The notes under the pieces are model-generated. The model was not told the origin of the DNA and made no database searches. It saw only the letters and a program-made list of their open reading frames with translations. From Snuella sedimenti (lineage in GTDB: Bacteria > Bacteroidota > Bacteroidia > Flavobacteriales > Flavobacteriaceae), in NCBI RefSeq assembly GCF_016428595.1, contig NZ_JAELVQ010000004.1:62001-126000 (forward strand): 64,000 nt of DNA, given 5' to 3'. Below, one piece after another: positions 9,158-59,268 of the stretch. Both the position numbers and the translations under genes were made by a program. Position 1 is the first letter of the stretch, and every line of letters starts with the position of its first letter.

Positions 9158-9263
9158 GGTTAAAAAATTTATTTTTTTTGATGTTTAACTTAGTTAAGGT
9201 GTCGCCCGTCTAAATTTATTTTATTTCAGGCTAAAATTATGAATTTTTATATTGTTAAATAGT
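9158..9263. promoter_or_regulatory. Divergent promoter region between the two-component system and the glycan locus
   Basis: About 106 bp of AT-rich DNA that must hold both promoters. It contains a short dyad, TTAACT-T-AGTTAA, at 9185-9197. LytTR regulators bind short repeats near promoters, so this is a candidate site. No clear TAnnTTTG box was found. Confidence 0.3.
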
Positions 9264-11516: not shown

Positions 11517-11610
11517 GTTTATGATTACTTTTGCGCGAATTAATTAATAGAACTGTGCTCAGGCATTGAAATCAAACTCGAAATAAGGAGTTAATAATAT
11601 AGAATTATAG

Positions 11611-13488: not shown

Positions 13489-13490
13489 AT

Positions 13491-14462: not shown

Positions 14463-14471
14463 TTTTTTAGA

Positions 14472-15542: not shown

Positions 15543-15586
15543 TGATTCGATCGCAGCAGGGTTAGTTGTAATTAAATGATATACAG

Positions 15587-16747: not shown

Positions 16748-16790
16748 AGATTAAGTTAAAAGATGAGTTCAATGATAAAAACATTTAGAA

Positions 16791-17912: not shown

Positions 17913-17965
17913 ACTGCCTCGGAGCAAGTCTCAGAGTATTTAAATCTCGATTATCGAATAAGATT

Positions 17966-20209: not shown

Positions 20210-20220
20210 TAAGGAAATAC

Positions 20221-21246: not shown

Positions 21247-23584
21247 AAATAAAAATAGAATGGTTAAAACATATAGATTAGTTATTGTAGCTCTTTTTTT
21301 AGGGTTGTTCGCATGTCAGACAAAACACGTTTCATTTACCGAAAGTGATATTCAAATAATCCCGAAGCCAGCTGAGGTAACATTACAAGAAGGTGGTTTT
21401 GCGTTTTCTGAGAGCACACAGTTTGTCGTTTCAGACGAAACGCAAAAGGTTATTTCAGAGGCGCTATTAGCTAAGTTTCAAAAAGCCGCGGGATGGACTC
21501 CCAGTGTAACAAATAGTGCCCCTTCAAAAAATTATGTTCAATTTATAACAGCCAACGAACTTGCAGAAGAAGCCTATAAATTAGAAGTAACTTCAAATCA
21601 TATAAATATTAGTGCCAGTGCAAATGCAGGATTTATTTATGGCTTGGAAACTGTTCGTCAGTTATTGCCTGTAGCTATTGAAAGCCCAGAAGTTGTAAGT
21701 AACATCGACTGGGTCATCCCTAATGTTCTGATTCAGGACCAACCACGTTTTAAGTGGCGTGGTTTAATGTTGGATCTGTCCCGTCATTTTTTTGGTAAGG
21801 AGTATCTTAAAAAGACCATAGATCGATTAGCAATGCACAAAATGAATGTATTGCATTTGCATTTAGTTGATGATCAAGGTTGGCGTATAGAAATAAAAAA
21901 ATATCCAAAACTTACCGAAGTAGGAGCTTGGCGTGTGGATCAGGAACACTTGGCATGGAATGCAAGATTAGCAACCAAACCGGGAGAAAAAGGAACCTAT
22001 GGAGGCTTTTTAACACAAGAAGAATTAAAAGAACTGGTAGCTTACGCAAAAACCAAAAATGTAGAGATCGTACCGGAGATCGAAATGCCAGCACACGTTA
22101 CCAGTGCTATTGCATCCTATCCAGAATATTCCTGTTTAGAGAAACCTGTAGGTGTACCGTCTGGAGGACTTTGGCCTATTACAGACATTTATTGCGCAGG
22201 AAAGGATAGCACATTCGAGTTTTTACAAGATATCCTTACCGAGGTGATGGCAATCTTTCCTTCTAAATACATCCATATAGGAGGCGATGAAGCAACAAAG
22301 ACCAATTGGAAAACCTGTCCGCATTGTCAAAAGCGAATGAAAACAGAAGGATTGCACGATGTAGAAGCATTGCAAAGTTACTTTGTAAAACGTATGGAGA
22401 AATTCATTAATGCCCATGGCAAAAAACTAATAGGCTGGGATGAGATTTTAGAAGGCGGACTGGCACCTGATGCTACAGTTATGAGTTGGCGTGGTGTAAA
22501 AGGAGGCGTAGAAGCAGCAAAGCAAGGACACGATGTGGTAATGACACCCGGAACGCATTGCTATTTTGACCATTATCAGGGCCCTCAAAGTTACGAGCCA
22601 CTTGCTTGGGGAGGGTTTACACCCTTAAGTAAGGTTTATACCTTCGATCCGGTAGTCGATACCATGACACCAGAAGAAGCTAAGCATGTGTTGGGAGGTC
22701 AAGCCAATTTATGGGCAGAATTTATTCCAACCGAAGCACAGTCTGAGTATATGATATATCCAAGATTGGCCGCTTTATCCGAAACCGTTTGGAGCCCTAA
22801 AGAGTTGCGGAATTGGGAAGATTTTTCGTCGCGTATAAGTACCATGTTTAAAAGATACAAACAATTAGGCATCAACTATGCAAAAAGTGCCTATTTGGTA
22901 ACGTCTGAAGCTAAAGTAAATATTGAAGAAAAGGTAGTGGACGTTGTTTTAAAGAATGAGTTTCCTTCAGCAGATATTCGATACACCATTGATGGTAGTG
23001 AAGTAAATGCCAGTTCGGAAAAATATATGAAACCGATAAAACTTACCAAAACAACACGTATAAGAGCCTCTTTGTTCGATGAAGAGCAACCAGTAGGTAA
23101 AGCATTTGATGAAACAATAAAATTCCATAAAGCGGTTGGTAAAAGAGTTGAATACAAAGAGAAGTATAGTGATAGCTATCAAGGAGCCGGTGCCTTTGGA
23201 ATGGTAAATGCATTACGCGGATCAAAAAATTTCCATGATGGGCAATGGCAGGCATGGATAGGAAAAGATATGGAAGTAACGATTGATTTAGAAAATGAAG
23301 AGACCATTCATCAAGTAACAGTGGGAACTTTAGAGAATCAAGGACCAGGTATCTATTTCCCAATTGCTGTTGAGGTTTATGTTTCTAACGATGGCAAAAC
23401 GTTTGAAAAAACTGGACAAATCGAAAGAAGGTATGCTGAAAATTCGAAATCTGAATTAAAAGAGTTTACCGTGAGTTTTACAGAGCGTAAGGCCCGCTAT
23501 GTAAAAGTAAAAGCGATCAATTTAAAGCGAGCTCCAAATGGTGGCGGAACCTGGCTGTTTGTTGATGAAATAATTGTGGATTAG
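21236..23584 (+). CDS. GH20 beta-N-acetylhexosaminidase with chitobiase-C and discoidin-like domains
   Basis: A 782-residue lipoprotein (LGLFAC). The N-terminal GH20b domain covers about residues 30-165. The GH20 barrel follows, with FKWRGLMLDLSRHF, MNVLHLHLVDDQGW, the catalytic pair D351-E352 in HIGGDEATK, and GGQANLWAEF. A chitobiase/hexosaminidase C-terminal unit (IRYTIDGSEVNASSEKYMKP) and a discoidin-like module (VTIDLENEETIHQVTVGTL) follow. It removes terminal beta-GlcNAc or GalNAc. The start at 21236 overlaps the previous stop by 11 bp; an in-frame ATG at 21260 also keeps the signal peptide. The two C-terminal domains recur in two proteins of the next module. Confidence 0.94.
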   Translation: MKNRNKNRMVKTYRLVIVALFLGLFACQTKHVSFTESDIQIIPKPAEVTLQEGGFAFSESTQFVVSDETQKVISEALLAKFQKAAGWTPSVTNSAPSKNYVQFITANELAEEAYKLEVTSNHINISASANAGFIYGLETVRQLLPVAIESPEVVSNIDWVIPNVLIQDQPRFKWRGLMLDLSRHFFGKEYLKKTIDRLAMHKMNVLHLHLVDDQGWRIEIKKYPKLTEVGAWRVDQEHLAWNARLATKPGEKGTYGGFLTQEELKELVAYAKTKNVEIVPEIEMPAHVTSAIASYPEYSCLEKPVGVPSGGLWPITDIYCAGKDSTFEFLQDILTEVMAIFPSKYIHIGGDEATKTNWKTCPHCQKRMKTEGLHDVEALQSYFVKRMEKFINAHGKKLIGWDEILEGGLAPDATVMSWRGVKGGVEAAKQGHDVVMTPGTHCYFDHYQGPQSYEPLAWGGFTPLSKVYTFDPVVDTMTPEEAKHVLGGQANLWAEFIPTEAQSEYMIYPRLAALSETVWSPKELRNWEDFSSRISTMFKRYKQLGINYAKSAYLVTSEAKVNIEEKVVDVVLKNEFPSADIRYTIDGSEVNASSEKYMKPIKLTKTTRIRASLFDEEQPVGKAFDETIKFHKAVGKRVEYKEKYSDSYQGAGAFGMVNALRGSKNFHDGQWQAWIGKDMEVTIDLENEETIHQVTVGTLENQGPGIYFPIAVEVYVSNDGKTFEKTGQIERRYAENSKSELKEFTVSFTERKARYVKVKAINLKRAPNGGGTWLFVDEIIVD

Positions 23585-23727
23585 AGGTCTTTATATTAGA
23601 AATCTTTTGGATGCAATTTTGTATATTTAAAAGATAAAGTGTTGATTAATAGTAATTTGTGTTATTTTGTGAGATTTTTAGTGTTTAGGCCTTTCAATTG
23701 TATTATAAATCAAAATAGGAAGCAGTA

Positions 23728-26085
23728 ATGTCAAATAAACAAGGAAATAAAAAATCGGGGATTTTAATATTATATTTTGCAATACCCTTCATTATTGTGT
23801 TGTTAGTAAAGTATAGTATTAGCATGTCTCGAGATCAGTATCAGGGGCTTGGTGAAAATTCTGCTGGTTCGGAAAAAGAGCAGCTGGCAGACATGGGTAT
23901 GAAGCTTCCAGATACTGTCGATTTTATTTTTCATGTGAAACCAATACTTTCAGATCGATGCTATCTTTGTCACGGTCCCGATGAGGGGACACGTGAAGCC
24001 GGTTTACGATTTGACACCAAAGAAGGGGCTTTTGCAGCTATTGGAGAACATTTAGATAAATACGCAATTGTTCCTGGAGATGCTGCTTCCAGTAGATTGG
24101 TATTTAAAATTAATAGTACCGATCCCGAACAAATAATGCCACCACCAGACTCCAACCTTACTTTGTCGGAGTACGAAAAGCAAATCCTTACCAAATGGAT
24201 AGAACAAGGAGCTGTTTGGAAAGATCATTGGTCGTTTGTGCCACCCAAGAAAAAGGAAGTGCCTTCCATTTCAAATCCCGAATGGGCTAGTAACGAAATA
24301 GATTATTTTATCGCAAAACGTCTAGAACAAGAAGGATTAGCACCTTCTGAAAAAGCAACTAAGGAAAAACTAATACGAAAGGTATATTTTGATCTTACAG
24401 GGTTGCCGCCGTCTATAGAGGAAATAGATACTTTTATAAATGATAAGGATGCAAATGCATACGAAAAAGTAGTTGATCACTTGTTGGCCTCTCCTGCTTA
24501 CGGAGAGCATATGGCATCAGGTTGGTTGGATCTCTCCAGATATGCCGATACACACGGTTATCAAGACGACCTGGAACGGGTTATGTGGCCCTGGCGAGAT
24601 TGGGTAATAAGTGCTATTAATAGAAACATGCCTTACAATCAATTTGTAAAATGGCAGTTGGCAGGCGATTTATTGCCAGATGCAACACTCGAACAAATTG
24701 TAGCAACAGGTTTCAACAGAAATCATAAAATAACACAAGAAGGCGGGGTGATAGATGAAGAATACCGTGTAGAATACGTAAAGGACAGGGCCAATACTAC
24801 CGCTAAAGCACTTATGGGCTTAACCATGGAGTGTGCGCAGTGCCATGACCATAAATACGATCCTATTTCACAAAAAGAATACTACGGCTTTTATGGGTTT
24901 TTTAATAAAGTAAATGAAAAAGGGCGTATTGATTATAATGAAATACCCGAGCCTAATGTAAAGATAACGCCCAAAGAGGTTAAAGAAACACTGTCGTTTA
25001 TAAACTTGCCGGACTCTATTAAGGAAGTACGTCTCATGGTTATGAAGGACGATGCGCCAGATAGAAAAACACATATATTAAAGCGCGGACAATATGACGC
25101 ACCATCAGAAGAAGTCTCTTTGAGTACTCCAGAAGTCGTATTTGTTTACTCCGATTCGCTTCCTAAAAACAGACTTGGATTGGCAGATTGGTTCTTTAGT
25201 GAAGGGAACACTTTAACGTCCAGAGTTGCAGTAAACAGGATGTGGCAACACATTTTTGGTGTTGGTATCGTTTCTACTTCCGATGATTTTGGAAATCAGG
25301 GAGCCCTACCATCCCACCCCGATTTGTTAGATTGGCTAGCCGTTACCTTTAGGGAAGACGGATGGGATGTAAAGAAAATGTATAAACGCATGGTCATGTC
25401 CAGCACTTACCAACAAACATCAAAAGTTACGCCACAGCTTTTAGAAGCCGATCCAGATAATGTTTTGCTGGCCAGAAGTTCTCGTAGTAAACTAACTGCC
25501 GAAATGATCCGGGACAATGCATTAGCTGTAAGTGGCTTGTTAGTTAATAAAATTGGTGGACCAAGTGTGAAACCCTATCAACCACCAGGGTTATGGGCTG
25601 AAACTACCTCTGGTCAGGGGCTTACAAAGTATATACCCGATACGGGAGAGAACCTTTATAGGCGTAGTTTATATACGTTCTGGAAACGTACAGTTCCCCC
25701 TCCGTCTATGATGACTTTCGACGCACCTACCAGGGATTTTTGTGAAGTGAAGCGCCAAAAAACAAGCACACCTTTACAAGCCTTGGTAATGCTTAACGAT
25801 CCGCAGTTGATTGAGGCAGCAGAGCATCTGGCTATGAATACACTGGAGAATGAAGCAACCACAGACGAGGAACGCGTTAAAACCATATTTAGAAAAATAA
25901 CCTCTCGTTTCCCAGAAGAAAACGAAATAGACGAATTAGTGCAATATCTAGAATATGTAAAAGATAGTTACGATACAACTAACAGCGATGTAACAAAAGC
26001 AGAGGGGCCATCTAAAGACGTTTATGCTTACACCGTTTTAACAAGTATGATTTTTAATCTGGATGAAGCTATTATAAAAGGGTAA
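23728..26085 (+). CDS. Membrane-anchored PSCyt1-DUF1549-DUF1553 c-type cytochrome protein
   Basis: A 785-residue protein with one N-terminal transmembrane anchor. Three domains known mainly from Planctomycetes and Verrucomicrobia follow. The PSCyt1 cytochrome domain has heme motif CYLCH (78-82) and likely Met ligand in IMPPPDS. DUF1549 (about 190-400) has LIRKVYFDLTGLPPS, DLSRYADTHGYQDD and a second heme-type motif, CAQCH, at 369-373 in CAQCHDHKYDPI. DUF1553 (about 483-750) has SRVAVNRMWQHIFG, HPDLLDWLAV and STYQQTS. A redox role is implied by the heme motifs; the substrate is unknown. It starts 143 bp after GH20 and runs tightly into the DUF1501 gene (4 bp), its usual partner. Confidence 0.88.
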   Translation: MSNKQGNKKSGILILYFAIPFIIVLLVKYSISMSRDQYQGLGENSAGSEKEQLADMGMKLPDTVDFIFHVKPILSDRCYLCHGPDEGTREAGLRFDTKEGAFAAIGEHLDKYAIVPGDAASSRLVFKINSTDPEQIMPPPDSNLTLSEYEKQILTKWIEQGAVWKDHWSFVPPKKKEVPSISNPEWASNEIDYFIAKRLEQEGLAPSEKATKEKLIRKVYFDLTGLPPSIEEIDTFINDKDANAYEKVVDHLLASPAYGEHMASGWLDLSRYADTHGYQDDLERVMWPWRDWVISAINRNMPYNQFVKWQLAGDLLPDATLEQIVATGFNRNHKITQEGGVIDEEYRVEYVKDRANTTAKALMGLTMECAQCHDHKYDPISQKEYYGFYGFFNKVNEKGRIDYNEIPEPNVKITPKEVKETLSFINLPDSIKEVRLMVMKDDAPDRKTHILKRGQYDAPSEEVSLSTPEVVFVYSDSLPKNRLGLADWFFSEGNTLTSRVAVNRMWQHIFGVGIVSTSDDFGNQGALPSHPDLLDWLAVTFREDGWDVKKMYKRMVMSSTYQQTSKVTPQLLEADPDNVLLARSSRSKLTAEMIRDNALAVSGLLVNKIGGPSVKPYQPPGLWAETTSGQGLTKYIPDTGENLYRRSLYTFWKRTVPPPSMMTFDAPTRDFCEVKRQKTSTPLQALVMLNDPQLIEAAEHLAMNTLENEATTDEERVKTIFRKITSRFPEENEIDELVQYLEYVKDSYDTTNSDVTKAEGPSKDVYAYTVLTSMIFNLDEAIIKG

Positions 26086-26089
26086 GGCC

Positions 26090-27547
26090 ATGGAAGAATT
26101 ATCACAACATTTTATTAATAATAACAGAAGGCATTTTTTAAAGAAAATGGGGTTAGGCATTGGTGGGATAGCCGCTGCTTCTTTGTTGGACCCGTTTAGT
26201 TCTGTTGCAGGAAGTAATCCCGCGGATGAATTGGCATTAAAACTGCCACATTTTGCTCCAAAAGCAAAACGGGTTATATACCTGTTTCAAAGTGGAGGGC
26301 CTTCTCAATTAGAGCTTTTTGATTATAAGCCCCTATTGGATAAATTAAGGGGTGAAGACTTGCCCGATTCTGTCAGAAATGGACAACGCTTAACAGGAAT
26401 GACCTCTGGACAAGATAAATTTCCTCTGGTTGGAAGTAATTTCAAATTTGACCAATATGGACAATCCAGGGCATGGGTTAGTAGTTTGATGCCATACACT
26501 GCTAAAGTGGTCGATGAACTCTGTTTTATAAAATCGATGCATACAGAGGCTATTAACCACGATCCGGCTATTACCTTTTTTCAAACAGGCTCCCAACAGG
26601 CTGGACGTCCTAGTATGGGGTCATGGATGAGTTATGGTTTGGGAAGCCTAAATGAAAACTTACCAACATTTACGGTACTGCTATCAAGGGGTACCGGGAG
26701 ACCTTTTTCACAACCCCTATACTCTAGGCTTTGGGGCAATGGCTTTTTAAGTTCTTTGCATCAGGGTGTACAGTTCAGGTCAGGTAAAGATCCCGTACTA
26801 TACCTTAAGGATCCGGAAGGTATGTCCAGGAGTGAACGTAGAAAGATGTTAGACCATATAAATGAGTTAAACCAGAAGCAAGAAGCAGAATTTGGAGATC
26901 CGGAAATAAATAGCAGGATTGCGCAATACGAAATGGCATACCGCATGCAAACATCAGTTCCGGATACCATGAATATTGATGATGAACCCGAGCATATTAT
27001 CCAGATGTACGGTATGGATGCCCTAACACCGGGGACTTATGCCGCTAATTGTTTGTTGGCAAGACGTATGGTAGAACGCGATGTTCGGTTTGTTCAGTTG
27101 TATCATATGGGATGGGATCAACATTTTGATCTGCCTTCACAGATAGAAAAACAAGCCAAAGACATCGATCAGGCGACAGCAGCCTTAATCATGGATTTAA
27201 AGCAACGTGGTTTGTTAGAAGATACTTTGGTTATATGGGGCGGTGAATTTGGAAGAACAAATTACAGTCAGGGTGTGCTAACGGAAACAAATTATGGTAG
27301 GGACCATCATCCTAAATGTTTTACCATGTTTATGGCAGGAGGTGGTGTAAAACCAGGCTTTACATATGGTGAGACAGATGATTTTGGGTATAATATTGTA
27401 AAAGACCCGGTACATGTACACGATTTACAAGCTACGGTTATGCATCTAATGGGAGTTGACCATACAAAATTTACCTATAAGCATCAGGGAAGACGATTTA
27501 GACTTACCGACGTATCCGGACATGTTGTTCACGATCTTTTATCTTAA
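26090..27547 (+). CDS. DUF1501 family Tat-exported protein
   Basis: A 485-residue protein with a twin-arginine signal (NNRRHFLKKMGLGIGG). It has the alkaline-phosphatase/sulfatase-like fold of DUF1501: VIYLFQSGGPSQLELFDYKP near the start, TEAINHDPAITFFQTGS, and GRDHHPKCFTMFMAGGGV near the end, with His and Asp residues in metal-site positions. DUF1501 genes almost always pair with DUF1549/DUF1553 genes, as here. Activity is not established; possibilities include a hydrolase on sulfated or phosphorylated glycans or an accessory to the cytochrome partner. Confidence 0.88.
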   Translation: MEELSQHFINNNRRHFLKKMGLGIGGIAAASLLDPFSSVAGSNPADELALKLPHFAPKAKRVIYLFQSGGPSQLELFDYKPLLDKLRGEDLPDSVRNGQRLTGMTSGQDKFPLVGSNFKFDQYGQSRAWVSSLMPYTAKVVDELCFIKSMHTEAINHDPAITFFQTGSQQAGRPSMGSWMSYGLGSLNENLPTFTVLLSRGTGRPFSQPLYSRLWGNGFLSSLHQGVQFRSGKDPVLYLKDPEGMSRSERRKMLDHINELNQKQEAEFGDPEINSRIAQYEMAYRMQTSVPDTMNIDDEPEHIIQMYGMDALTPGTYAANCLLARRMVERDVRFVQLYHMGWDQHFDLPSQIEKQAKDIDQATAALIMDLKQRGLLEDTLVIWGGEFGRTNYSQGVLTETNYGRDHHPKCFTMFMAGGGVKPGFTYGETDDFGYNIVKDPVHVHDLQATVMHLMGVDHTKFTYKHQGRRFRLTDVSGHVVHDLLS

Positions 27548-27553
27548 CTAATT

Positions 27554-28597
27554 ATGAGTCGTAGAAAGTTCTTAAAACAATCCTCTTTATTGTCACTTGG
27601 TGTGTTAACTACTTCAATGTATGGTAGTGCCTTTTCCTTTAATGCAAACAGTGATGTGATAATAGGCCATAATTCGCATCGCTACAAAGTGGATATGGCA
27701 TGGGGGAATTTGGATGCATCCAAAACGCCGGTTAAAGACTGCCATGAGATGGTACAGGATTCCAAAGGACGTATCGTTTTACTTACCAATCACACTAAAA
27801 ACAATGTGATTATTTACGACAAGTCCGGGAAGTTCATTTCAAGTTGGGGAACCGAATACCCCGGAGGGCACGGTCTTACTTTAGTTAAGGAAAATGGTGA
27901 GGATTTTTTATTGATAACCGATTACGAGCGACATCAGGTCATAAAGACGACAATTGATGGTAAAGTCGTTTTTGAAATAAATTACCCTGCAGATACTGGA
28001 AAATACAATAACAAAAACGAGTTCAAGCCAACAGAAACAACCGTTTTGGAGAATGGCGATTTTTATGTGGCTGATGGCTATGGTAACCAGTATATTACAC
28101 ATTACAATCATAAAGGAGAGTTGCTCAATATATTTGGTGGCAGGGGGATTGAAGATGACAAGTTTTTAAATGCACATGGTATTTGTTACGATAACAGGGA
28201 CAAGAATAACCCCTCGCTGTTAATATCGGCTAGAGAATTAAATATTTTAAAGCGCTTCGATTTACAAGGTAACTATTTAGAATCGGTTCCCGTACCCGGA
28301 GCTTTGATCTGCAGACCGGTAATCCATAAGAACGACATCTATTTTGCCGTCCTAAAATCGAAAAATGCACCAAATAGCGATTCGGGCTTTTTGTTGATTA
28401 TGAATGAAAAGAACGAAGTGGTTTCTTGTCCGGGAGCTACCGCTCCATCATATGCCAATAACAAATTGGAAGAATTATACCAAACGGTTAGGTTGTTTCA
28501 ACACCCGCATGATGTCTGTATAGATGATGATGAAAACATGTATGTAGCACAATGGAATTCAGGTCATACCTATCCAATAAAACTAATACGTGTATGA
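27554..28597 (+). CDS. Tat-exported NHL-type six-bladed beta-propeller protein
   Basis: A 347-residue protein with a Tat signal (MSRRKFLKQSSLLSLG). Repeated NHL-like blades follow: GRIVLLTNHTKNNVIIYDKS, HGLTLVKENGEDFLLITDYE, LENGDFYVADGYGNQYITHY and HPHDVCIDDDENMYVAQWNS. Such propellers act as peptidylglycine-lyase-like, lactonase-like or binding proteins; nothing here picks one. It lies 6 bp after DUF1501, and its stop overlaps the next ATG by 4 bp, so it belongs to the heme module. Confidence 0.8.
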   Translation: MSRRKFLKQSSLLSLGVLTTSMYGSAFSFNANSDVIIGHNSHRYKVDMAWGNLDASKTPVKDCHEMVQDSKGRIVLLTNHTKNNVIIYDKSGKFISSWGTEYPGGHGLTLVKENGEDFLLITDYERHQVIKTTIDGKVVFEINYPADTGKYNNKNEFKPTETTVLENGDFYVADGYGNQYITHYNHKGELLNIFGGRGIEDDKFLNAHGICYDNRDKNNPSLLISARELNILKRFDLQGNYLESVPVPGALICRPVIHKNDIYFAVLKSKNAPNSDSGFLLIMNEKNEVVSCPGATAPSYANNKLEELYQTVRLFQHPHDVCIDDDENMYVAQWNSGHTYPIKLIRV

Positions 28598-29382
28598 GAC
28601 TGTTACTGGTGTTTTATTGTTTGGTGTTTTTTAACTGTACCCAAAAAAGAAGTACGCAATTTTTACAACCCAATCAGGTTAGTTTGGCACAGCCCAGAGT
28701 AGTAGCTAACAGTACCTTAATAGATTCTTTTGTTACTATTAAAGCCAATTTAAAATTGGACGACGTGTCTATTTATTATACCTCTAATGGAGAAGAGCCT
28801 AGCAGGTCAACAACAAAATATGAACATCCAATCAAGGTGTCAAATCCAGGAACCTTTAAATTTAAGGCCTATCATACCGATTGGAATCCCAGTGAATTTA
28901 CCGCGCTGACACTCTATAAAAAGGGGCTGGATGCAGATACTATTGTATGGCATTCTAAAAGCAGTGAAAAATATAAAGGACAAGGTGAAAACACGTTAAT
29001 TAATCAAACCAAAGCCTCATTGAATTTTAGTGATCCCCAATGGGTTGGCTTTGATACCATTGCTTCCGCAACCGTTTCATTTAAAGACAATACGTTTGTG
29101 AAATTATTAACCGTAAGTTATTTAAACGATGCAGGCTCTTGGATATTCCCTCCAGAGTCTATAACCGTGATTTTAAACGAAGATATATCTACCAAGAAAA
29201 CAGAAACTATAAAATCTTTAAATTCCCTAACGGCAAGAAAAATGGAAACTGTAAAGATTCCTATTGAAGCAGAAGTTAAGTCTTTAAGGGTAGAAGTACA
29301 TAATTTACAGTCTATACCAGAATGGCATGAGGGACATGGTACAAAAGCGTGGTTGTTTATGGATGAATGGATTTTAAACTAA
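28594..29382 (+). CDS. Lipoprotein with chitobiase-C-type and discoidin-like domains
   Basis: A lipoprotein of about 262 residues. The proper start is the ATG at 28594, in an ATGA overlap with the previous stop; it gives MRLLLVFYCLVFFNC, a clean lipobox. A longer frame from 28552 would put 14 unlikely residues first. It has a chitobiase/hexosaminidase C-terminal unit (SIYYTSNGEEPSRSTTKYEH) followed by a discoidin-like sandwich ending AWLFMDEWIL, with no catalytic domain. The same pair of domains ends the GH20 enzyme and the next gene product. It may bind glycan or scaffold the neighbouring redox proteins. Confidence 0.8.
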   Translation: MRLLLVFYCLVFFNCTQKRSTQFLQPNQVSLAQPRVVANSTLIDSFVTIKANLKLDDVSIYYTSNGEEPSRSTTKYEHPIKVSNPGTFKFKAYHTDWNPSEFTALTLYKKGLDADTIVWHSKSSEKYKGQGENTLINQTKASLNFSDPQWVGFDTIASATVSFKDNTFVKLLTVSYLNDAGSWIFPPESITVILNEDISTKKTETIKSLNSLTARKMETVKIPIEAEVKSLRVEVHNLQSIPEWHEGHGTKAWLFMDEWILN

Positions 29383-29389
29383 AGAAAGT

Positions 29390-31516
29390 ATGTTAAAAGA
29401 TTTAAGAAACTTTAAGGAAAGTCTTTTATTTGCAGTATGTTTATTAGTATCGGGTTATTCCAATGCTTCTAATGGAGATGATGTTCCCAGAATAATACTG
29501 GCTTTAGGACGTTTGCATCCGTTGATTTTACACTTGCCTATAGGAGCCTTGCTGTTAACGTTTTTTCTGGATATTGTTGGAAGAATAAGAAAGAATTACC
29601 CAAAGCAAATTATAAAATATGCATTAGGTTTTTCGTCGCTATTTTCAATCATGGCGTGTGTTTTTGGTTATTTTCTTTCTTTAGAAGATGGTTATTCTGG
29701 AAAAACCCTAGATATCCATTTTTGGACAGGTATCTTATCAGCTACATTAATTACGCTGCTTTTTTTATTATGTGATAAAGAGAATAAACAATTAAAACGA
29801 TTATTCTTTCCGCTATTTGTTGGAACGATTGTTAGTATAAGTGTCGCTGGCCACTACGGTAGTGTTTTAACACGTGGTGATAATTTTTTAACAGAATATA
29901 TAAAAGCACCACCTAAACTACAAACTATAGAGCATATAGACAGTCTAAATATGTATGACAATGTGGTGTTAAAGATATTTGATGATAAATGTACGCAGTG
30001 TCATAATACCACAAAAAGAAAAGGGGATTTGGCATTAATTTCTAAAGAAAGTTTACTAGAGGGTGGTGAATCGGGAGACGTGATCTCTTTGGGGAATTCC
30101 AGGGAGAGTTTGCTGTACAAGCATATCATGCTTCCCATTTCAGACGAGGATCATATGCCGCCGGAAGGTAAACCCCAACTAACAAAAGATGAGTTATGGC
30201 TTATAAAATATTGGTTAGATAATAGTGGAGAGGTAGATAATAAAGTGGTTGCCATCGCAAAAAATGATACCTTAAACAAGTTATTGAAGAAGTATCTGGT
30301 CTTTGAAGAAAAGCATATCGAGGAAGCTGCCTTAGGAGCTATCCAAGATGTAGAAGACGAAGGTTTCTTAGTCCGAAAGCTGGTGCCTACAGAACCCGAA
30401 CTTTGGGTGAAATATAATAATAAGGTAATTGCAAAAGAAGCAGTAAAGACATTGGTCGATCTAAAAGATCAAATTGTTGAATTGGATCTAAGCAATACGT
30501 CTTTAACCGACGATATGACAAGCGGGTTGAGAAAACTAAAGAATCTGGAAAAGCTGGAATTAAATAATACGCAAATAACAGATAAAGCTTTAAAACACTT
30601 AAAACATTTAAAAGCACTTAAAATTTTAAATCTTGTCGGCAATGATATTAGTGAACAAGGGTTGGAGAATTTGTTGACTTCCATAACTCCCGAGCACGTG
30701 TATGCCTGGAAAACAAAAATAGACCAAAGGCTGGCTCAAAAGTTAAGTAATGACTTTGATGTTAAGATAAACAGTGGTGTTACAGGCTTTGTAGAAACGA
30801 CGCAGTTAAAAGTACCTTTTATGGTAACAAAAAAGGCATTGTTTGTTGATACCATAAGCATTAAGCTCGATTCCAAGTTAAGAAACACAAAAATATTTTA
30901 CACCTTAAACGGGGACGAACCAGATACCACTGCCTTACAGTATACCAAACCTATCATGCTTGATACAAATGCAACTATTGCAGTTAAAGCCTTTAAAAAA
31001 GGATGGAATCCAAGTGAGACATTAAAGCGTGATTTCTATAAAGTAAACCATAAAGTTTCGGATTATACAATCACACATCAACCAGAAAAACAATATCCCG
31101 GATCCGATAAACTATTTGATCTAGAATTGGGAACTTTAAATTTTAAAGATGATAAGTGGACTGGGTTTTTGGGTAATGATATTAATACGGTTATCGATTT
31201 AGGAGCTGTAAAGCCCGTAACCAAAATAGCGGTCGATTGTTTAGGACAACCAAAACAGTGGATTTTGTTTCCAACAGCTGTAGAGGTTTATGCTTCTAAC
31301 AATAAAGCCTCTGGTTTTAAACGAATTGGAACGATGAAAACAAATAAGGACAATACCAACGATATGCCACTTATTGAAAGGTTTTTCGTTGAAATTCCCA
31401 AAACAGAAGCAAGATATTATAAAGTTGTAGTCAAGAATCCAAAGGTGTTACCTAAGGGGCATGAAGGCGAGGGAAATGCATCCTGGATTTTTGTGAGTGA
31501 AATCATGTTTTGGTAA
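29390..31516 (+). CDS. DUF2231-cytochrome c-LRR-chitobiaseC-discoidin fusion protein
   Basis: A 708-residue membrane protein with an unusual domain series. An N-terminal hydrophobic segment is followed by a DUF2231-type membrane domain (LHPLILHLPIGALLLTFF and three further helices, to about residue 165). A PSCyt1-type cytochrome c domain has heme motif CTQCH (201-205) and DHMPPEGKP as likely axial Met. Leucine-rich repeats (LDLSNTSLTDDM, LELNNTQITDKAL) span about 360-435. A chitobiase-C-like unit (FYTLNGDEPDTTALQYTKP) and a C-terminal discoidin-like domain ending ASWIFVSEIMF follow. It may pass electrons between membrane and surface proteins of the module (inference). Confidence 0.85.
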   Translation: MLKDLRNFKESLLFAVCLLVSGYSNASNGDDVPRIILALGRLHPLILHLPIGALLLTFFLDIVGRIRKNYPKQIIKYALGFSSLFSIMACVFGYFLSLEDGYSGKTLDIHFWTGILSATLITLLFLLCDKENKQLKRLFFPLFVGTIVSISVAGHYGSVLTRGDNFLTEYIKAPPKLQTIEHIDSLNMYDNVVLKIFDDKCTQCHNTTKRKGDLALISKESLLEGGESGDVISLGNSRESLLYKHIMLPISDEDHMPPEGKPQLTKDELWLIKYWLDNSGEVDNKVVAIAKNDTLNKLLKKYLVFEEKHIEEAALGAIQDVEDEGFLVRKLVPTEPELWVKYNNKVIAKEAVKTLVDLKDQIVELDLSNTSLTDDMTSGLRKLKNLEKLELNNTQITDKALKHLKHLKALKILNLVGNDISEQGLENLLTSITPEHVYAWKTKIDQRLAQKLSNDFDVKINSGVTGFVETTQLKVPFMVTKKALFVDTISIKLDSKLRNTKIFYTLNGDEPDTTALQYTKPIMLDTNATIAVKAFKKGWNPSETLKRDFYKVNHKVSDYTITHQPEKQYPGSDKLFDLELGTLNFKDDKWTGFLGNDINTVIDLGAVKPVTKIAVDCLGQPKQWILFPTAVEVYASNNKASGFKRIGTMKTNKDNTNDMPLIERFFVEIPKTEARYYKVVVKNPKVLPKGHEGEGNASWIFVSEIMFW

Positions 31517-31555
31517 ATAGTTGATTAAAGTAAAAGAGTAAATTAAAGATTATAA

Positions 31556-33877
31556 ATGAATACGATGAATTTAAAATATTTGGGATTCCTGATACTAATA
31601 GTATGTTTTTCCTGTAAAGATCAGACAGAGGAAATAGTGGTAAACAAACGAACTTCCAATGAGCTTGTAGATTATGTCAATCCACTTATGGGAACCGATT
31701 CTGAGTTCAAATTGTCTAATGGGAATACCTACCCAGCAATAGCAAGACCATGGGCCATGAATTTCTGGACGCCACAAACAGCTAAAATGGGAGATGGTTG
31801 GGCTTATAAATATGATGACACCAAAATAAGAGGAATCAAGCAAACCCATCAGCCCAGTCCGTGGATTAATGATTATGCAGCCTTTTCATTAATGGCCGTA
31901 ACGGGTGACTTGAAGTTTCAAGAAGATGAGCGCGCCTCTTGGTTTTCCCATAAGGCCGAAACGGTAAAACCTTACCACTACTCGGTGTATTTAGCCGATC
32001 ATGATGTAGTGGTCGAAGTGACTCCGACAGAGCGTGCATCGCAGTTCAAATTTACCTTTCCTGAATCTGAGCAATCCTATATTATTTTGGATGCTTTTTT
32101 TAAAGGCTCTATGGTTAAAATTTTGCCGAACGAACGAAAAATAATAGGCTATTGCAGAAATAATAGCGGTGGTGTACCCGATAATTTTCATAACTATTTT
32201 GTTGCAGAATTCGATCGGGATTTTGAGATAACACATACTTGGCACGATGACTGGGAATTACAAGAAAATGCTAATGAAAGTGAGGGCGAACATGTTGGGG
32301 CCATCATAGGTTTTAAAACCATAAAGGGCGAAGTTGTTCATGTAAAAGTAGCGTCATCCTTCATCAGTCCTGAGCAGGCAGCTTTAAATTTAAAAAGAGA
32401 AATAGGAGATGATACCTTCGATCAAACTAAAGAAAAGGCAAAACAAGCCTGGGAGAAGGAATTGAACCGTATTCAAATTGAAGATGACAATATAGATCAT
32501 ATTAAAACCTTTTACTCTAGCCTGTACAGGGTGTTATTATTCCCAAGAAAATTTTATGAATTCGATGCCAATAACGAAATTGTGCATTACAGTCCTTATA
32601 ATGGCAAGGTATTACCCGGATATATGTTTACTGATAATGGCTTTTGGGATACGTTTAGGGCTGTATTCCCATTTTTTAATATGATGTATCCAGAGCTGAA
32701 CAGTCATATAATGGAAGGCTTGGCCAACACCTACAAAGAATCGGGTTGGTTGCCCGAGTGGGCAAGCCCGGGACATCGTGATTGTATGATTGGCTCCAAT
32801 TCGGCCCCTATCATAGCCGATGCTTTTTTGAAAGGGAATGTAAAAGAAAAAGATGTCGATATACTGTTTGAGGCTATGCTAAAAAATGCAACCGTATCCG
32901 AAGGCCGTCCCGTTAACTCGGTGGGTCGCGCCGGACTGGATTATTACAATTCGCTTGGTTATGTGCCTTACAATGTTGGGATTCATGAAAATGCAGCCAG
33001 AACTTTAGAATATGCCTATGCCGATTATACCATTGCCCAAATGGCCGAAAAGCTAGGAAAAAAAGATATCGCTCAGAAATATTTTGAGAAGGCCATGAAT
33101 TACAAGAAATTGTTCGACCCTTCAAGTAGTTTAATGCGTGGCAAGAATGAGGACGGAACTTTTCAATCGCCTTTTAATCCGCTTAAATGGGGAGATGCCT
33201 TTACCGAAGGTAATAGTCTGCATTATACTTGGTCCGTTTTTCAAGATGTTCAGGGACTTATAGATCTTATGGGAGGAAAAAACGCCTTCATTGCAAAATT
33301 GGATGGAGTATTTTCCATGCCACCAGATTTTGACGATTCCTATTATGGACAAACCATTCATGAGATCAGGGAAATGCAAATTGTAAATATGGGTAATTAT
33401 GCGCATGGTAATCAGCCTATTCAGCATATGATCTATTTGTATAATTATGCAGGAGCCCCTTATAAGGCACAAGCTCGTATTCGTGAGGTACTTACTAAGT
33501 TATATTCAGCTACGCCAGATGGTTATTGTGGTGATGAGGATAACGGACAAACATCGGCATGGTATGTATTTAGCTCTTTAGGGTTTTATCCAGTAACCCC
33601 GGGAACCGACCAATATGTAATTGGAAGCCCATTATTTAAGAAAGCAACACTGCACCTTGAAAATGGGAACACCTTCAAAATCCTTTCGGAAAACAATTCA
33701 GATGCTAATTTTTATATTCAATCTGTAACCTCGAACGGTACATCTTACAATAATAGTTACCTGAATTTTGAAACCATTCAAAAAGGAGGCGAATTACAAT
33801 TTAATTTAGGAAACACACCAAATAAAGACTGGGCAAGTAAACCAGAGAATGCCCCGTATTCATATAGTAATCAATAA
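31556..33877 (+). CDS. GH92 alpha-mannosidase 3, lipoprotein
   Basis: A 773-residue lipoprotein (IVCFSC). GH92 features are present but diverged: VNPLMGTDSEFKLSNGNTYP at the N-terminus, TEGNSLHYTW (acid E551), and GDEDNGQTSAW (base motif D662). The leaving-sugar loop reads YAHGNQPIQH, with Gln620 where GH92-1 and -2 have Glu. That change predicts a different linkage or leaving group, for example alpha-1,3, alpha-1,6, or a substituted mannose (inference). It starts 39 bp after the heme module and 16 bp before the fucosidase. Confidence 0.92.
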   Translation: MNTMNLKYLGFLILIVCFSCKDQTEEIVVNKRTSNELVDYVNPLMGTDSEFKLSNGNTYPAIARPWAMNFWTPQTAKMGDGWAYKYDDTKIRGIKQTHQPSPWINDYAAFSLMAVTGDLKFQEDERASWFSHKAETVKPYHYSVYLADHDVVVEVTPTERASQFKFTFPESEQSYIILDAFFKGSMVKILPNERKIIGYCRNNSGGVPDNFHNYFVAEFDRDFEITHTWHDDWELQENANESEGEHVGAIIGFKTIKGEVVHVKVASSFISPEQAALNLKREIGDDTFDQTKEKAKQAWEKELNRIQIEDDNIDHIKTFYSSLYRVLLFPRKFYEFDANNEIVHYSPYNGKVLPGYMFTDNGFWDTFRAVFPFFNMMYPELNSHIMEGLANTYKESGWLPEWASPGHRDCMIGSNSAPIIADAFLKGNVKEKDVDILFEAMLKNATVSEGRPVNSVGRAGLDYYNSLGYVPYNVGIHENAARTLEYAYADYTIAQMAEKLGKKDIAQKYFEKAMNYKKLFDPSSSLMRGKNEDGTFQSPFNPLKWGDAFTEGNSLHYTWSVFQDVQGLIDLMGGKNAFIAKLDGVFSMPPDFDDSYYGQTIHEIREMQIVNMGNYAHGNQPIQHMIYLYNYAGAPYKAQARIREVLTKLYSATPDGYCGDEDNGQTSAWYVFSSLGFYPVTPGTDQYVIGSPLFKKATLHLENGNTFKILSENNSDANFYIQSVTSNGTSYNNSYLNFETIQKGGELQFNLGNTPNKDWASKPENAPYSYSNQ

Positions 33878-33893
33878 ATAATTATAAGCAAAG

Positions 33894-35372
33894 ATGAAAA
33901 AGAAATTACTCATTGTTACAGTACTATTTTCAATGCAATTGTTCTCACAGGCAATTTATGAGGATGAACGTTATGTTCCGGAAACCGATCCTTTGGTTTT
34001 GGAAAAATTGGATCAATGGCAGGGACTTAAATTTGGATTGTTAATGCACTGGGGTACTTATAGTCAATGGGGTATTGTGGAGTCCTGGTCGTTATGTCCG
34101 GAAGAGTATGGTTGGTGCGAACGCAAAAAAGGAAGTAATCCAAACGACTATTTTGCCTATAAAAAGGAATACGAAGCATTACAAACCACGTTTAATCCAG
34201 TAAAATTCGACCCAGATAAATGGGCAAATGCAGCTAAGGATGCAGGAATGCGATATGTGGTTTTTACAACGAAACATCACGATGGATTTAGCATGTTCGA
34301 CTCCAAATATACCGACTATAAAATAACCTCCCCAAAAACCCCTTTTTCGACCAATCCTAAAGCAAACATTGCAAAAGAAATCTTTAGTTCCTTTAGGAAT
34401 CAAGGACTTTGGGCGGGAGCCTATTTTTCAAAGCCCGATTGGAATGTTAAAAGTTACTGGGATCCGTATTTTCCACCGAAAGACAGGAATGTAAATTATT
34501 CACCTGTTGATTATCCCGAAAAGTGGCAGGAATATGTAGATTTTACCCATAATCAAATTATGGAATTGATGACAGACTACGGAAAGATCGATATCCTTTG
34601 GTTAGATGGCGGTTGGGTGGCTAAAACACCTAAAGCAGAGATTACCGAATGGTATAAGCATACTGTTGCTAATGACGAAGAAGGTTATTTAAAGCATCGA
34701 ATTATCAATCAGGATATAAAGATGGACGAATTGGTTGTTAAAGCTCGTAAAAAACAACCTGGTTTAATTGTAGTCGATCGCGCCGTTCACGGTAAAAACC
34801 AAAATTACCTAACACCCGAAAACCGAGTGCCAGAGAAAACATTGCCCTATCCATGGGAGTCCTGTATTATTTCCGGAGGCGGATGGTCTTACACCCCAAA
34901 TGCAAAATATATGAGTGCCAGAGAAGGCATTCATATGCTTGTTGATGTTGTTGCTAAAGGAGGGAATTTGTTATTAAATATAGCACCAAGTCCCGAAGGA
35001 GCGTGGCAACAAGGCGCTTACGATCTTTTAAAGGCCTATGGCGATTGGATGGCTGTTAATAGTAGTGCCATTTATGAAACAAAACCAATTGCACCCTTCA
35101 AGGAAAATAATATTTGTATGACTCAGAATAAAAAAGGTAATGTCTTTTTATTCTATTTGGCAGCAGAAGGAGAAGATAAAATTCCGTCAGAAGTAACCGT
35201 AAAATCCATTACACCAAAAAGAGGATCAAAGATTACCATGCTGGGATCGAATAAGCGATTAAAATGGGTAAAACAGGATGAAGGCTTTAAAGTGATCATC
35301 CCCGAAAGTTTGAGAAATAATTTGCCTTCTAAATATGCTTGGACATTAAAGATTGAAGCCGTAAATCAGTAG
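33894..35372 (+). CDS. GH29 alpha-L-fucosidase
   Basis: A 492-residue exported protein (signal MKKKLLIVTVLFSMQLFSQA) with a GH29 barrel: FGLLMHWGTYSQWGIVESW, YVVFTTKHHDGFSMFDSKYT, and the nucleophile Asp238 in ILWLDGGWV. A C-terminal beta-domain follows GGNLLLNIAPSPEG. GH29 releases alpha-linked fucose with retention. In an N-glycan locus the likely target is core fucose, whose removal would also free GlcNAc-Asn for glycosylasparaginase. It is followed by a hairpin terminator at 35380-35423. Confidence 0.93.
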   Translation: MKKKLLIVTVLFSMQLFSQAIYEDERYVPETDPLVLEKLDQWQGLKFGLLMHWGTYSQWGIVESWSLCPEEYGWCERKKGSNPNDYFAYKKEYEALQTTFNPVKFDPDKWANAAKDAGMRYVVFTTKHHDGFSMFDSKYTDYKITSPKTPFSTNPKANIAKEIFSSFRNQGLWAGAYFSKPDWNVKSYWDPYFPPKDRNVNYSPVDYPEKWQEYVDFTHNQIMELMTDYGKIDILWLDGGWVAKTPKAEITEWYKHTVANDEEGYLKHRIINQDIKMDELVVKARKKQPGLIVVDRAVHGKNQNYLTPENRVPEKTLPYPWESCIISGGGWSYTPNAKYMSAREGIHMLVDVVAKGGNLLLNIAPSPEGAWQQGAYDLLKAYGDWMAVNSSAIYETKPIAPFKENNICMTQNKKGNVFLFYLAAEGEDKIPSEVTVKSITPKRGSKITMLGSNKRLKWVKQDEGFKVIIPESLRNNLPSKYAWTLKIEAVNQ

Positions 35373-35379
35373 ATATTAA

Positions 35380-35423
35380 GCTGGCATGTTTAAGAAGAGC
35401 AGTAGAACATGTCAGCCTTTTTT
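35380..35423 (+). terminator. Hairpin terminator after the fucosidase
   Basis: Arms GCTGGCATGTT and AACATGTCAGC pair with one G-T wobble and are followed by a T run. It lies between GH29 and GH92-4, so it may end the long transcript or attenuate read-through into GH92-4. Confidence 0.75.
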
Positions 35424-35439
35424 AAAATAAAAGAAACAG

Positions 35440-37707
35440 ATGAAGATCCTTAGTCTCAAAATTTTTTGTTTAAAGAAAAGATTCCAATACAGTTATTTAC
35501 TTTCCATAATTGTGCTGTTATCGCTTTGCGATATGCATGCTCAACAACCCGCCGATTATGTTAATCCGTTTATTGGCACCTCAAATTATGGAGCTACATA
35601 CCCAGGACCCATAGCGCCCAGGGGGATGGCGAGTATCAGTCCCTTTAATGTGGCAGGACCTCAAAACCTACCATCGGAAAAGGATAGTGGTTGGTTGTCT
35701 AATCCCTATGTACACCAGAATACTTTTCTAACAGGATTTAGTCAGGTGAATTTAAGTGGTGTTGGTTGCCCCGACCTGGGTGTTTTATTATTGATGCCTA
35801 CTACTGGGACGTTAGAGACGAATCATTTAAAGTATGGATCCACCTATTCAAACGAAGTTGCAAAAACAGCCTATTACAGTACAGAAATAGATAAGTACAA
35901 TACAAAGGCAGAGTTTACAACCTCTAAACGTGTGGGTGTGAGTAAATTTACCTTTCCAAAAGGACAGGCTAATATTTTACTGAATTTAGGATTAGGCCTT
36001 ACCAATGAGCAAGGAGCGATGGTTAAAATAGTGTCTTCAACAGAAATAGAAGGCATGCGCACCGTTGGTTCATTTTGTTATAATAGCCCTGAAGCGGCTT
36101 ATCCGGTTTATTTTGTTGCTAAATTTTCTAAACCTGCCGATCGTTATGGTGTTTGGAAAACACCATATACATACGAAGGTGTGGAAGCACAATGGATGGG
36201 TTACAATGGAAAAACCCGTATTATGGAAAACGCGACCAGAATGGTGGTAGGAGACAGTATAGGGACTTACTTTACTTATAAATTTGATAAGCAGGAAACC
36301 GTTGAGGTTAAAATAGGTGTATCGTATGTAAGTATTGAGAACGCCAGAGAAAACTTAAAAAAAGAAACGGCAAACAAATCGTTTGAGGACATTCATAAGG
36401 AGACTTATGATGAATGGAATAAACTGCTTTCAAGAATTAAGGTTGAAGGAGGCACTGTAGATGATAAAACCATTTTCTATACCGCTTTATACCACACTTT
36501 AATCCATCCCAATACGCTCAACGACAGTAATGGTGATTACCCAGAGATAAAAACAGGTAAGATAGGTAATACCTCCGGAACACGGTTTACCGTATTTTCA
36601 CTTTGGGACACCTATAGAAATTTACATCAGTTAATGTCGTTGGTGTATCCCAAACAACAATTAAACATGGTTAATAGCATGTTGAATATGTACGATGAAA
36701 ATGGCTGGTTGCCCAAATGGGAATTAAACTCAACAGAAACCTTTACTATGGTTGGTGACCCGGCAAGTATTGTCATTACAGATACGTATTTAAAGGGCAT
36801 TCAGGATTTTGATGTGGAAAAAGCCTACGAGGCTATGCTGAAAAGTGCCGATCAAATTAAAGAAAATCCCCTACGCCCCGGATTAAAGGACTATATTGAA
36901 AAAGGGTATTTAACCACAGATAATGGAGGGCCGGTTTCTACAACCCAGGAGTATAATGCAGCGGACTATTCCATTGCGCTGTTAGCGAAAGCACTGGGAA
37001 AAGATGAAGATTATAAGCGGTTTAAAAAGCGTTCAATATCCTATCGAAAACTGTTTGATAAAGATTTGAAGTTACTAAGGCCAAGATTACCCAATGGCAA
37101 TTGGTATGAACCATTTAACCCCAATGCAGGTGCTAATTTCACCAAAAATGTTGGCTTTATTGAAGGAAACGCATGGCAATATGCCTTTATGGTACCTCAT
37201 GATATTGAAGGCCTTGCAAAACTAATGGGAGGAAAAAAAGCCTTTTCAAAGCAATTGCAAAAGGTATTTGATATGGATCAATTTGATATGGCTAACGAGC
37301 CTGACATCGCCTATCCGTACTTGTTCAATTATGTAAAAGGAGAAGAATGGCGCACACAGAAATTGGTAAAGGAACTTGTTCATAAGTATTTTCAAAACAA
37401 GCCAGGAGGCGTTCCCGGTAATGACGATACAGGAACCATGTCTGCTTGGTTGGTTTATTCCATGATGGGAATTTACCCCGTAGCTCCCGGAGAACCAAAG
37501 TATGCCATAACAACCCCTATGTTTGATAAGATCACCATTCAATTGGATTCAAAATACTATAAGAATAAAGAATTAGTAATAAAGAAAGCACGCAATAATG
37601 ATGGTTACATTAAACAAGTAAAGCTTAACGGTAAGATCCATAAAGGGTATTTTATAGATCATGGAACATTGGTTAATGGAAACACATTGGAGATTATATT
37701 AAAATGA
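35440..37707 (+). CDS. GH92 alpha-mannosidase 4, exported
   Basis: A 755-residue protein with a longer signal region but no clear lipobox (cleavage likely after DMHAQ), so it may be periplasmic rather than lipid-anchored. GH92 features are VNPFIGTSNYGATYPGPIAP, IEGNAWQYAF (acid E575) and GNDDTGTMSAW (D663). The leaving-sugar loop is FDMANEPDIAY (E620), unlike the HGNEPSHH and HGNQPIQH loops of the other three. It is the most divergent GH92 here and probably prefers a different linkage (inference). It lies 17 bp beyond the terminator after GH29 and is followed by a repeat-bearing gap. Confidence 0.92.
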   Translation: MKILSLKIFCLKKRFQYSYLLSIIVLLSLCDMHAQQPADYVNPFIGTSNYGATYPGPIAPRGMASISPFNVAGPQNLPSEKDSGWLSNPYVHQNTFLTGFSQVNLSGVGCPDLGVLLLMPTTGTLETNHLKYGSTYSNEVAKTAYYSTEIDKYNTKAEFTTSKRVGVSKFTFPKGQANILLNLGLGLTNEQGAMVKIVSSTEIEGMRTVGSFCYNSPEAAYPVYFVAKFSKPADRYGVWKTPYTYEGVEAQWMGYNGKTRIMENATRMVVGDSIGTYFTYKFDKQETVEVKIGVSYVSIENARENLKKETANKSFEDIHKETYDEWNKLLSRIKVEGGTVDDKTIFYTALYHTLIHPNTLNDSNGDYPEIKTGKIGNTSGTRFTVFSLWDTYRNLHQLMSLVYPKQQLNMVNSMLNMYDENGWLPKWELNSTETFTMVGDPASIVITDTYLKGIQDFDVEKAYEAMLKSADQIKENPLRPGLKDYIEKGYLTTDNGGPVSTTQEYNAADYSIALLAKALGKDEDYKRFKKRSISYRKLFDKDLKLLRPRLPNGNWYEPFNPNAGANFTKNVGFIEGNAWQYAFMVPHDIEGLAKLMGGKKAFSKQLQKVFDMDQFDMANEPDIAYPYLFNYVKGEEWRTQKLVKELVHKYFQNKPGGVPGNDDTGTMSAWLVYSMMGIYPVAPGEPKYAITTPMFDKITIQLDSKYYKNKELVIKKARNNDGYIKQVKLNGKIHKGYFIDHGTLVNGNTLEIILK

Positions 37708-38102
37708 TCCGAATGTTGTGGCGTGCCACGATTTAAGTTGGCGTGTTGGGTGTTTAATGTTGTCATCCCGAACGAGGAACGAGGAGGGATCTCGATCTTA
37801 TTAAGATGTCTCACTTCGACTTCGCTCAGTGCAGGCTTAGTTTGTTCCCTACGCTGTCGAATTTGACAAGTTGTATCAACACTTTAAATTAACGTGAATC
37901 TTGGATAAGAAAATTTATGCCAGTTTGAGTGATTTTTGAAAAAAATCGTATCGAAAACGAGTAAATTTTTCGACTAAAAAAGCTTCTCGATACAAAATTC
38001 TTTCAGAATTTTACAGAAGTGACATCTTGAACTCCTAAATAGGATTCGCGTTAAATTATTCAAAACTGAGGTTATTAGCAATGAAATTAAAATACCTGTA
38101 AG
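37708..38102. repeat. Intergenic region with a dispersed flavobacterial repeat
   Basis: No gene is seen in these 395 bp. From about 37763 it has GTCATCCCGAACGAGG, then CTTCGACTTCGCTCAG, TCTTGGATAA (37899-37908) and an inverted repeat ACAAAATTCTTTCAGAATT (from 37992). The last three elements recur at 49200-49440, TCTTGGATAA in the opposite orientation. These look like copies of one mobile or REP-like intergenic repeat. A promoter for the GH163-type gene may lie in the last 60 bp but is not recognised. Confidence 0.6.
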
Positions 38103-40349: not shown

Positions 40350-40356
40350 GTAAAAC

Positions 40357-46576: not shown

Positions 46577-46593
46577 TTAAAAAAAATATCACT

Positions 46594-48579: not shown

Positions 48580-48607
48580 ATCTTTATTAACATTATAATT
48601 TAGTAAT

Positions 48608-48949: not shown

Positions 48950-48975
48950 ATAGAAAGACTTGATTGTTAATTTTG

Positions 48976-52770: not shown

Positions 52771-52780
52771 AAAAAAAGAT

Positions 52781-59262: not shown

Positions 59263-59268
59263 AACTCA

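Follow-up and report, generated by a model that had tools for sequence, protein, structure and literature searches.

Planctomycete-specific cytochrome proteins (PSCyt1/2/3, accompanied by PSD1-5) have been described from Verrucomicrobia, and according to He et al. (2017; PMC5615132) nothing is known about the functions of the PSCyt genes. In the part of that source drawn on here, PSCyt2 genes usually adjoin a gene of another unknown family, and carbohydrate-binding modules and F5/8 domains are fused to PSCyt proteins. Further relatives come from N-glycan use, in which GH92, GH18 and GH20 enzymes act (PMC10154615): BT0459 (6q63), a GH20 enzyme of Bacteroides thetaiotaomicron, is described in the portion of that paper used here as having broad specificity for the antenna GlcNAc of N-glycans, and it ends in a tandem chitobiase-C plus discoidin tail.

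We analysed a window of 64,000 nucleotides from Snuella sedimenti, in which one open reading frame (29390-31516; hereafter the 29390 protein) has the PSCyt1 heme domain in common with the verrucomicrobial proteins and the tandem tail in common with BT0459. It differs from the former in that PSCyt1 is part of a separate membrane protein, which has DUF2231, a leucine-rich repeat (LRR) part, and a GH20-type tail, DUF2231 being unmentioned in the part of PMC5615132 drawn on here, and from the latter in that the GH20 catalytic domain is absent and the tail is carried by a membrane cytochrome, grouping with its own kind. Among the titles and abstract openings listed from PMC literature under CC0, CC BY and CC BY-SA, no description of a DUF2231-cytochrome with PSCyt2 was found. 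Measured against these, the parts belong to known families and the union of PSCyt proteins with binding modules is already in print, and what appears new is the DUF2231-cytochrome as a near-obligate partner.

Domains and predicted topology of the 29390 protein

The reading frame starts with ATG and has zero internal stops over 708 aa (Table 1). Pfam identified, all above the curated cut-offs, DUF2231 (PF09990; residues 42-160, E 2.7e-8, 34.4 bits against a cut-off of 26.4), PSCyt1 (PF07635; residues 201-260, E 1.6e-9, 38.7 bits against 22; CTQCH at 201-205), LRR_8 (residues 363-420, E 5e-7), Fn3_assoc (491-548, E 1.7e-12), and CHB_HEX_C_1 (488-544, E 3.8e-11). F5/8 type C (PF00754) gave no Pfam match, even at E<=1, and the last domain was assigned in another way: residues 490-706 match BT0459 by sequence (E 2.6e-14), and in an AlphaFold2 model the tail aligns with BT0459 with a Z of 23.4 over 230 residues at 23% identity. 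Residues 551-708 of the model have the fold of CBM32 domains (Z about 13) and of the DDR1 discoidin domain (Z about 16), a likeness at the level of fold (Z about 13-16 overall). On this homology and modelled fold, residues 549-708 are a discoidin/CBM32-fold domain, and both lines extend over the two domains of a GH20-type chitobiase-C plus discoidin tail. Since the mean pLDDT of the model is 88.4 but its pTM 0.40, the single domains are reliable and their mutual arrangement is not predicted.

Table 1. Features of the window on the forward strand (positions in the 64,000-nucleotide stretch; residues numbered in each protein).
Feature	Position	Strand	Remarks
N-glycan-type degradation locus around 29390	9252..41217	+	four GH92, SSF, GH130, GH18, GH20, Asparaginase_2, GH29, DUF4838
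PSCyt1-PSCyt2(DUF1549)-PSD1(DUF1553) partner	23728..26085	+	785 aa; two CxxCH; hydrophobic N-terminal helix 10-34
DUF1501 protein	26090..27547	+	twin-arginine N-terminus; weak sub-cut-off Sulfatase and Phosphodiest matches
NHL-repeat propeller	27554..28597	+	RR N-terminus
Lipoprotein-like chitobiase-C protein, paralogue of the 29390 tail	28594..29382	+	inferred ATG overlaps NHL stop; listed ORF start 28552
DUF2231 - PSCyt1 (c heme) - LRR - chitobiase-C - discoidin/CBM32-fold protein	29390..31516	+	708 aa
DUF2231 membrane part	29513..29869	+	residues 42-160, four helices 43-67, 72-97, 104-127, 133-160
PSCyt1 c-type heme domain	29990..30169	+	residues 201-260; CTQCH 29990-30004; invariant M256
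Leucine-rich repeat part	30365..30772	+	residues 326-461 of model
CHB_HEX_C_1 / Fn3_assoc domain	30851..31033	+	residues 488-548; Pfam
Discoidin / F5-8-type-C / CBM32-fold domain	31040..31513	+	residues 551-708; assigned by fold

The sequence-only reading of this DNA had placed these five domains on one polypeptide, in an intact frame rather than an assembly artefact, and had pointed to structure prediction and a database search as checks. The domains were borne out by Pfam and, for the C-terminal part, by BT0459 homology and fold; the full-chain model returned C-terminal parts of chitobiase-C and discoidin type. The two sugar-associated beta-sandwiches of that reading are likewise both there, and are better described as a single tandem tail of the kind known from GH20 enzymes, chitobiase-C followed by discoidin. 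As for the frame, two further genera of the family (G115 and G006) have full-length relatives that are 62-63% identical, and 57 further sequences align across the full length. Across 199 family genomes, seven proteins (counting the query) are at least 44% identical over most of the length, and more match in this way at about 30%. A genome scan covering the best 80 loci of 565 relatives found these mostly in Bacteroidota, with one in Balneolota and one in Calditrichota; the architecture recurs across Bacteroidota.

Conservation was followed in an alignment of 127 sequences, which includes the window and some genomes twice. H43, H48, H110, and H155 of the DUF2231 part, which sit on three membrane helices, and C201, C204, and H205 of the CxxCH motif together with M256, are invariant in 127/127. 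The conservation of the histidines is partly by construction, since loci L078-L157 were found with patterns containing H43/H48 or H155/H162; all 40 loci from L038 to L077, which were found by whole-protein similarity and not by motif, keep the four histidines, CxxCH, and M256. The heme motif, whose loss in close homologues would have counted against the sequence-only reading, is thus kept in both samples. At codon 162 (29873-29875), the window has Arg (CGT) and the other 126 of the 127 aligned sequences have His, either a real variant or a base error.

Mean K+R per loop over the 127 sequences is 3.3 between TM1 and TM2, 3.1 between TM3 and TM4, 0.3 between TM2 and TM3, and 1.3 after TM4; the charge of the first two is positive and that of the last two negative. 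Since there are four helices and the loop charges follow the positive-inside rule, both ends of the bundle are placed on the periplasmic side. Maturation of c-type heme requires a periplasmic heme domain, and on this ground together with the loop charges the tail is predicted to be periplasmic and not at the cell surface. The 29390 protein is thereby predicted to be anchored in the inner membrane and to face the periplasm. In such a topology H43, H48, H110, and H155 would all lie near the periplasmic face, where they may hold a b-type heme or form a quinone site. COX15/CtaA-type membrane heme proteins gave a weak Pfam match to the membrane part of one relative (L050), below the cut-off (E 4.6e-4, 19.8 bits against 29.9). 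The proposal that the chain couples a membrane electron path to a glycan-contacting surface end is therefore supported in its first half, the path being plausible, and unsupported in its second, the C-terminus being predicted in the periplasm; the predicted helices with their positive-inside loops would likewise speak against an outer-membrane or surface cytochrome for extracellular electron transfer.

Association with PSCyt2-PSD1 proteins

In 199 family genomes, 45 encode both a DUF2231-cytochrome and PSCyt2, none the former only, one (G112) PSCyt2 only, and 153 neither; here the DUF2231-cytochrome was counted at E<=1e-30, a threshold set after seeing the matches, which were listed to about 1e-20, and the Fisher p of the association ignores kinship. 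A second set of 296 genomes of the phylum, at least 90% complete and counted at E<=1e-12, gave 37 with both, none with the DUF2231-cytochrome only, one (G459) with PSCyt2 only, and 258 with neither; four genomes are common to the two sets. G112 and G459 were each searched alone and no DUF2231-cytochrome was found in either; the G112 assembly is 64% complete and its PSCyt2 is a fragment at a contig end. With a looser cut, one of the 199 family genomes (G172) has a DUF2231-cytochrome (9.0e-30) and no PSCyt2, the protein being joined to PSCyt3 in a single frame of 1202 aa. The membrane module thus also serves another PSCyt class, and since the exception belongs to that other class it leaves our estimate for the main reading unchanged. 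S. sedimenti itself encodes a protein of this kind (L039; contig C1, 6682-10326, minus strand; 1215 aa), in which DUF2231 and PSCyt1 are joined to PSD3, PSD5, PSD4, PSCyt3, and PSD2, which places the module with both PSCyt classes; one-frame pairs like it are also present in G020 and G172.

The S. sedimenti genome has four PSCyt2 genes and four DUF2231-cytochrome relatives, paired as neighbours. In 18 genomes (10 of the family and 8 more), a single open frame holds a DUF2231-cytochrome match with a PSCyt2 match next to it, although in one of them (G259) the first match begins only at TM4; a one-chain DUF2231-PSCyt1-PSCyt2-PSD1 protein was confirmed by Pfam in L050 and the fusion in L051 by phmmer. 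Linkage to PSCyt2 and co-occurrence with it, as would be looked for in a membrane subunit, were thus both found for the 29390 protein. The sequence-only reading, which had proposed a pull-down with the 23728 product, missed how tight this partnership is: with counts of both, DUF2231-only and PSCyt2-only genomes of 45/0/1 and 37/0/1, that product is the natural partner.

The 29390 gene belongs to a conserved operon that also encodes the diheme 23728 protein and DUF1501; the listed frames from 23728 to 31516 are separated by gaps of 4 to 7 bases or overlap. In a comparison of 120 loci, which include some genomes twice (e.g. L060/L080 and L062/L081), genes no more than 9 kb away and on the same strand included PSCyt2 and DUF1501 at 98 loci, an NHL gene at 67, and the 28 kDa tail paralogue at 42. 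A near PSCyt2/DUF1501 cassette was absent at 22/120, partly from short contigs or fused genes. At six loci (L065, L088, L090, L091, L118, and L124, of which L090 and L118 are short contigs), the fusion protein gene directly follows an AGA gene and PSCyt2/DUF1501 is absent from the stretch examined; L088 has a Pfam-confirmed sulfatase upstream, and the only PSCyt2 in the genome of L065 (G004) is on another contig.

The two heme motifs of the partner (C78/C81/H82 and C369/C372/H373) are invariant in an alignment of 45 sequences, and two CxxCH were found in 95 of 96 partner sequences. All 112 DUF1501 proteins have an RR pair, 61 of the 68 NHL proteins have an RR-x-F motif, and TatC is encoded in the S. 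sedimenti genome, which fits export of both by the Tat route. Among solved structures, Foldseek found no relative of the partner at E<=0.001; the VIA-align comparison was limited to 153 chains, with rows mainly for residues 682-785 and the heme part, so that a new fold is not implied. The cytochrome domains of FoxE and of hydrazine synthase alpha resemble the PSCyt1 part of the partner only, and the rest is without a clear solved relative. Invariant residues of the partner fall in low-confidence loops of its model (273-283, 336-339, and 654-674), as might be expected had the model left out a cofactor. For the DUF1501 protein, no solved relative was found at E<=1 except a match of residues 10-57 at 0.15.

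The surrounding glycan locus and the tail

By gene content (GH92, GH18, GH20, GH130, a glycosylasparaginase-like protein, and SusC/D), the locus around 29390 would be of the N-glycan utilisation type, its Asparaginase_2 protein being consistent with a glycosylasparaginase. An IS110-family transposase (41650-42717, minus strand) separates the glycosidase genes from two SusC/D pairs (43268-54265). Near the locus lie a 3-keto-disaccharide hydrolase and Gfo/Idh/MocA pair (57919-60669, minus strand), and similar genes occur near several other PSCyt cassettes. N-glycan-type genes were found near 11/18 fusion loci of the window clade and its sister, 15/49 other fusion loci, and 1/21 core-only/insert loci; for tail-less loci the counts were 2/3 in the window clade and 0/1 elsewhere.

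A paralogue in the same genome (L076; G000:C34:196236-197546), 58% identical in the core and adjoining GH92 and GH2 genes, has no tail, and the core can thus do without one. A quick tree was built from 75 tails, taken from 37 hand-picked loci out of the 120 plus the window, in which several rows of the 28 kDa paralogue are long-branched. In it, each of the three kinds, the 29390-type tails, the 28 kDa paralogues, and the GH20 tails, largely keeps together (3, 2, and 1 changes, respectively), and a single clade of 29390-type tails is not rejected (AU p 0.478). A recent graft of the tail from the GH20 gene of the same operon was considered and is unsupported, given this grouping.

Core-only systems were compared with tail-bearing ones in 95 pairs with both genes complete and on the same strand, an insert being a partner region of at least 200 aa between PSCyt2 and PSD1. 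Seventy pairs have the tail and no partner insert, 21 are core-only with an insert, four (L038, L075, L076, and L086) have neither, and none has both; in other terms, the insert is present in 21/25 core-only and 0/70 tail-bearing pairs. L075, L076, and L086 are nested in the fusion clade and look like losses. Pfam analysis of five insert-bearing partners returned Laminin_G_3 in L042, L043, and L054, a sub-cut-off CBM_6 in L077, and nothing recognisable in the insert of L044. This pattern does no more than suggest that the PSCyt2-PSD1 system needs one binding-type module somewhere. As proof of one complex, the mutual exclusion of tail and insert was dropped: a quick tree, which covers the window besides 92 loci (three loci with identical cores were removed), needs 4 changes for the tail and 2 for the insert, only 3 (starred) or 4 (all) independent pairs remain (p 1), and the pattern is mostly one old split.

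Proposed function and alternatives

Since it nearly always co-occurs with PSCyt2 enzymes, the 29390 protein is probably their membrane electron link. We put at about 60% the reading in which it serves the PSCyt2-PSD1/DUF1501 system as an electron-transfer subunit anchored in the inner membrane and facing the periplasm. Electrons would pass between the diheme PSCyt1-PSCyt2-PSD1 protein, the PSCyt1 domain of 29390, and the quinone pool, most likely from an oxidised substrate to the two hemes of the partner, then to the PSCyt1 heme, the DUF2231 histidine site, and quinone. What points to a physical complex and electron transfer between the two proteins is the one-frame fusions only. The tail would keep the complex close to its substrate or to glycosidases encoded in the same locus, and the substrate in the window locus would probably be an N-glycan-derived sugar, a glycopeptide, or a released product.

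The direction of flow is fixed by nothing in the sequence, and the same complex could run in reverse, from quinol through the DUF2231-cytochrome to a PSCyt2-PSD1 protein acting on glycans as an enzyme that uses oxygen, peroxide, or another acceptor. Where a membrane-bound chain has periplasmic heme domains, electrons more often go from substrate to quinone or an oxidase, and no oxygenase family was matched by Pfam; we therefore hold reverse flow to be unlikely, even if a PSCyt2-PSD1 body without a clear solved relative leaves room for an oxygenase and if, in the part of He et al. (2017; PMC5615132) drawn on here, epilimnion Verrucomicrobia are richer in PSCyt genes and electron-acceptor availability is suggested to matter. 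Still less can be said for a redox or glycan sensor in place of an electron carrier: LRR and binding-fold domains could signal, yet Pfam found no signalling domain, and the near-obligate pairing with a diheme protein and the invariant heme motif and Met make this reading highly improbable. That the gene lies here by chance, as part of a PSCyt cassette that is functionally unrelated to N-glycans and landed in a glycan locus, would agree with the absence of N-glycan-type genes at 7/18 window-clade fusion loci examined (L060, L061, L062, L069, L084, L109, and L120) and at 34/49 other fusion loci in the stretch examined. Against such an insertion stand the recurrence of these genes at 11/18 loci of the window clade and its sister and the six loci without near PSCyt2 that put the fusion gene directly after AGA, and we regard it as improbable.

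A structural or protein-docking tail that binds no sugar, with the 28594-29382 lipoprotein or the GH20 or DUF4838 proteins as its partners, has a better claim, and we give it somewhat less than an even chance. In its favour, LRR parts generally bind proteins; a tail paralogue is encoded by the neighbouring gene, and the two kinds stay largely apart in the tree of selected loci; and three loci nested in the fusion clade (L075, L086, and L076, the last being the own-genome paralogue) have no tail. It is countered by several CBM32 fold matches whose entry titles name structures solved with GlcNAc-, GalNAc- or galactose-type ligands, by the LamG or CBM6-like domains that partners in core-only systems often bear instead, and by the closest solved fold, BT0459, a GH20 enzyme reported to act on N-glycan antennae (PMC10154615, in the part used here). 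Glycan binding by the two beta-sandwiches is accordingly offered as a fold-level lead only.

Beyond the electron-transfer subunit as such, we tentatively suggest, as an idea that is less probable than its negation, that the PSCyt1-PSCyt2-PSD1 protein, DUF1501 protein, NHL propeller, and DUF2231-cytochrome may form a periplasmic complex linked to the respiratory chain, which would oxidise or oxidatively cleave glycan-derived substrates by means of interchangeable substrate modules: either the membrane subunit would carry a GH20-type tail, or the enzyme itself would contain LamG/CBM6-like domains. PSCyt2-PSD1 and DUF1501 proteins are present in Bacteroidota and in PVC bacteria. A near-obligate membrane cytochrome partner turns an "unknown domain" into a testable electron-transfer system, and N-glycan-type loci supply a candidate substrate for it. 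If real, the oxidising complex would give glycan use a widespread redox branch alongside the hydrolases.
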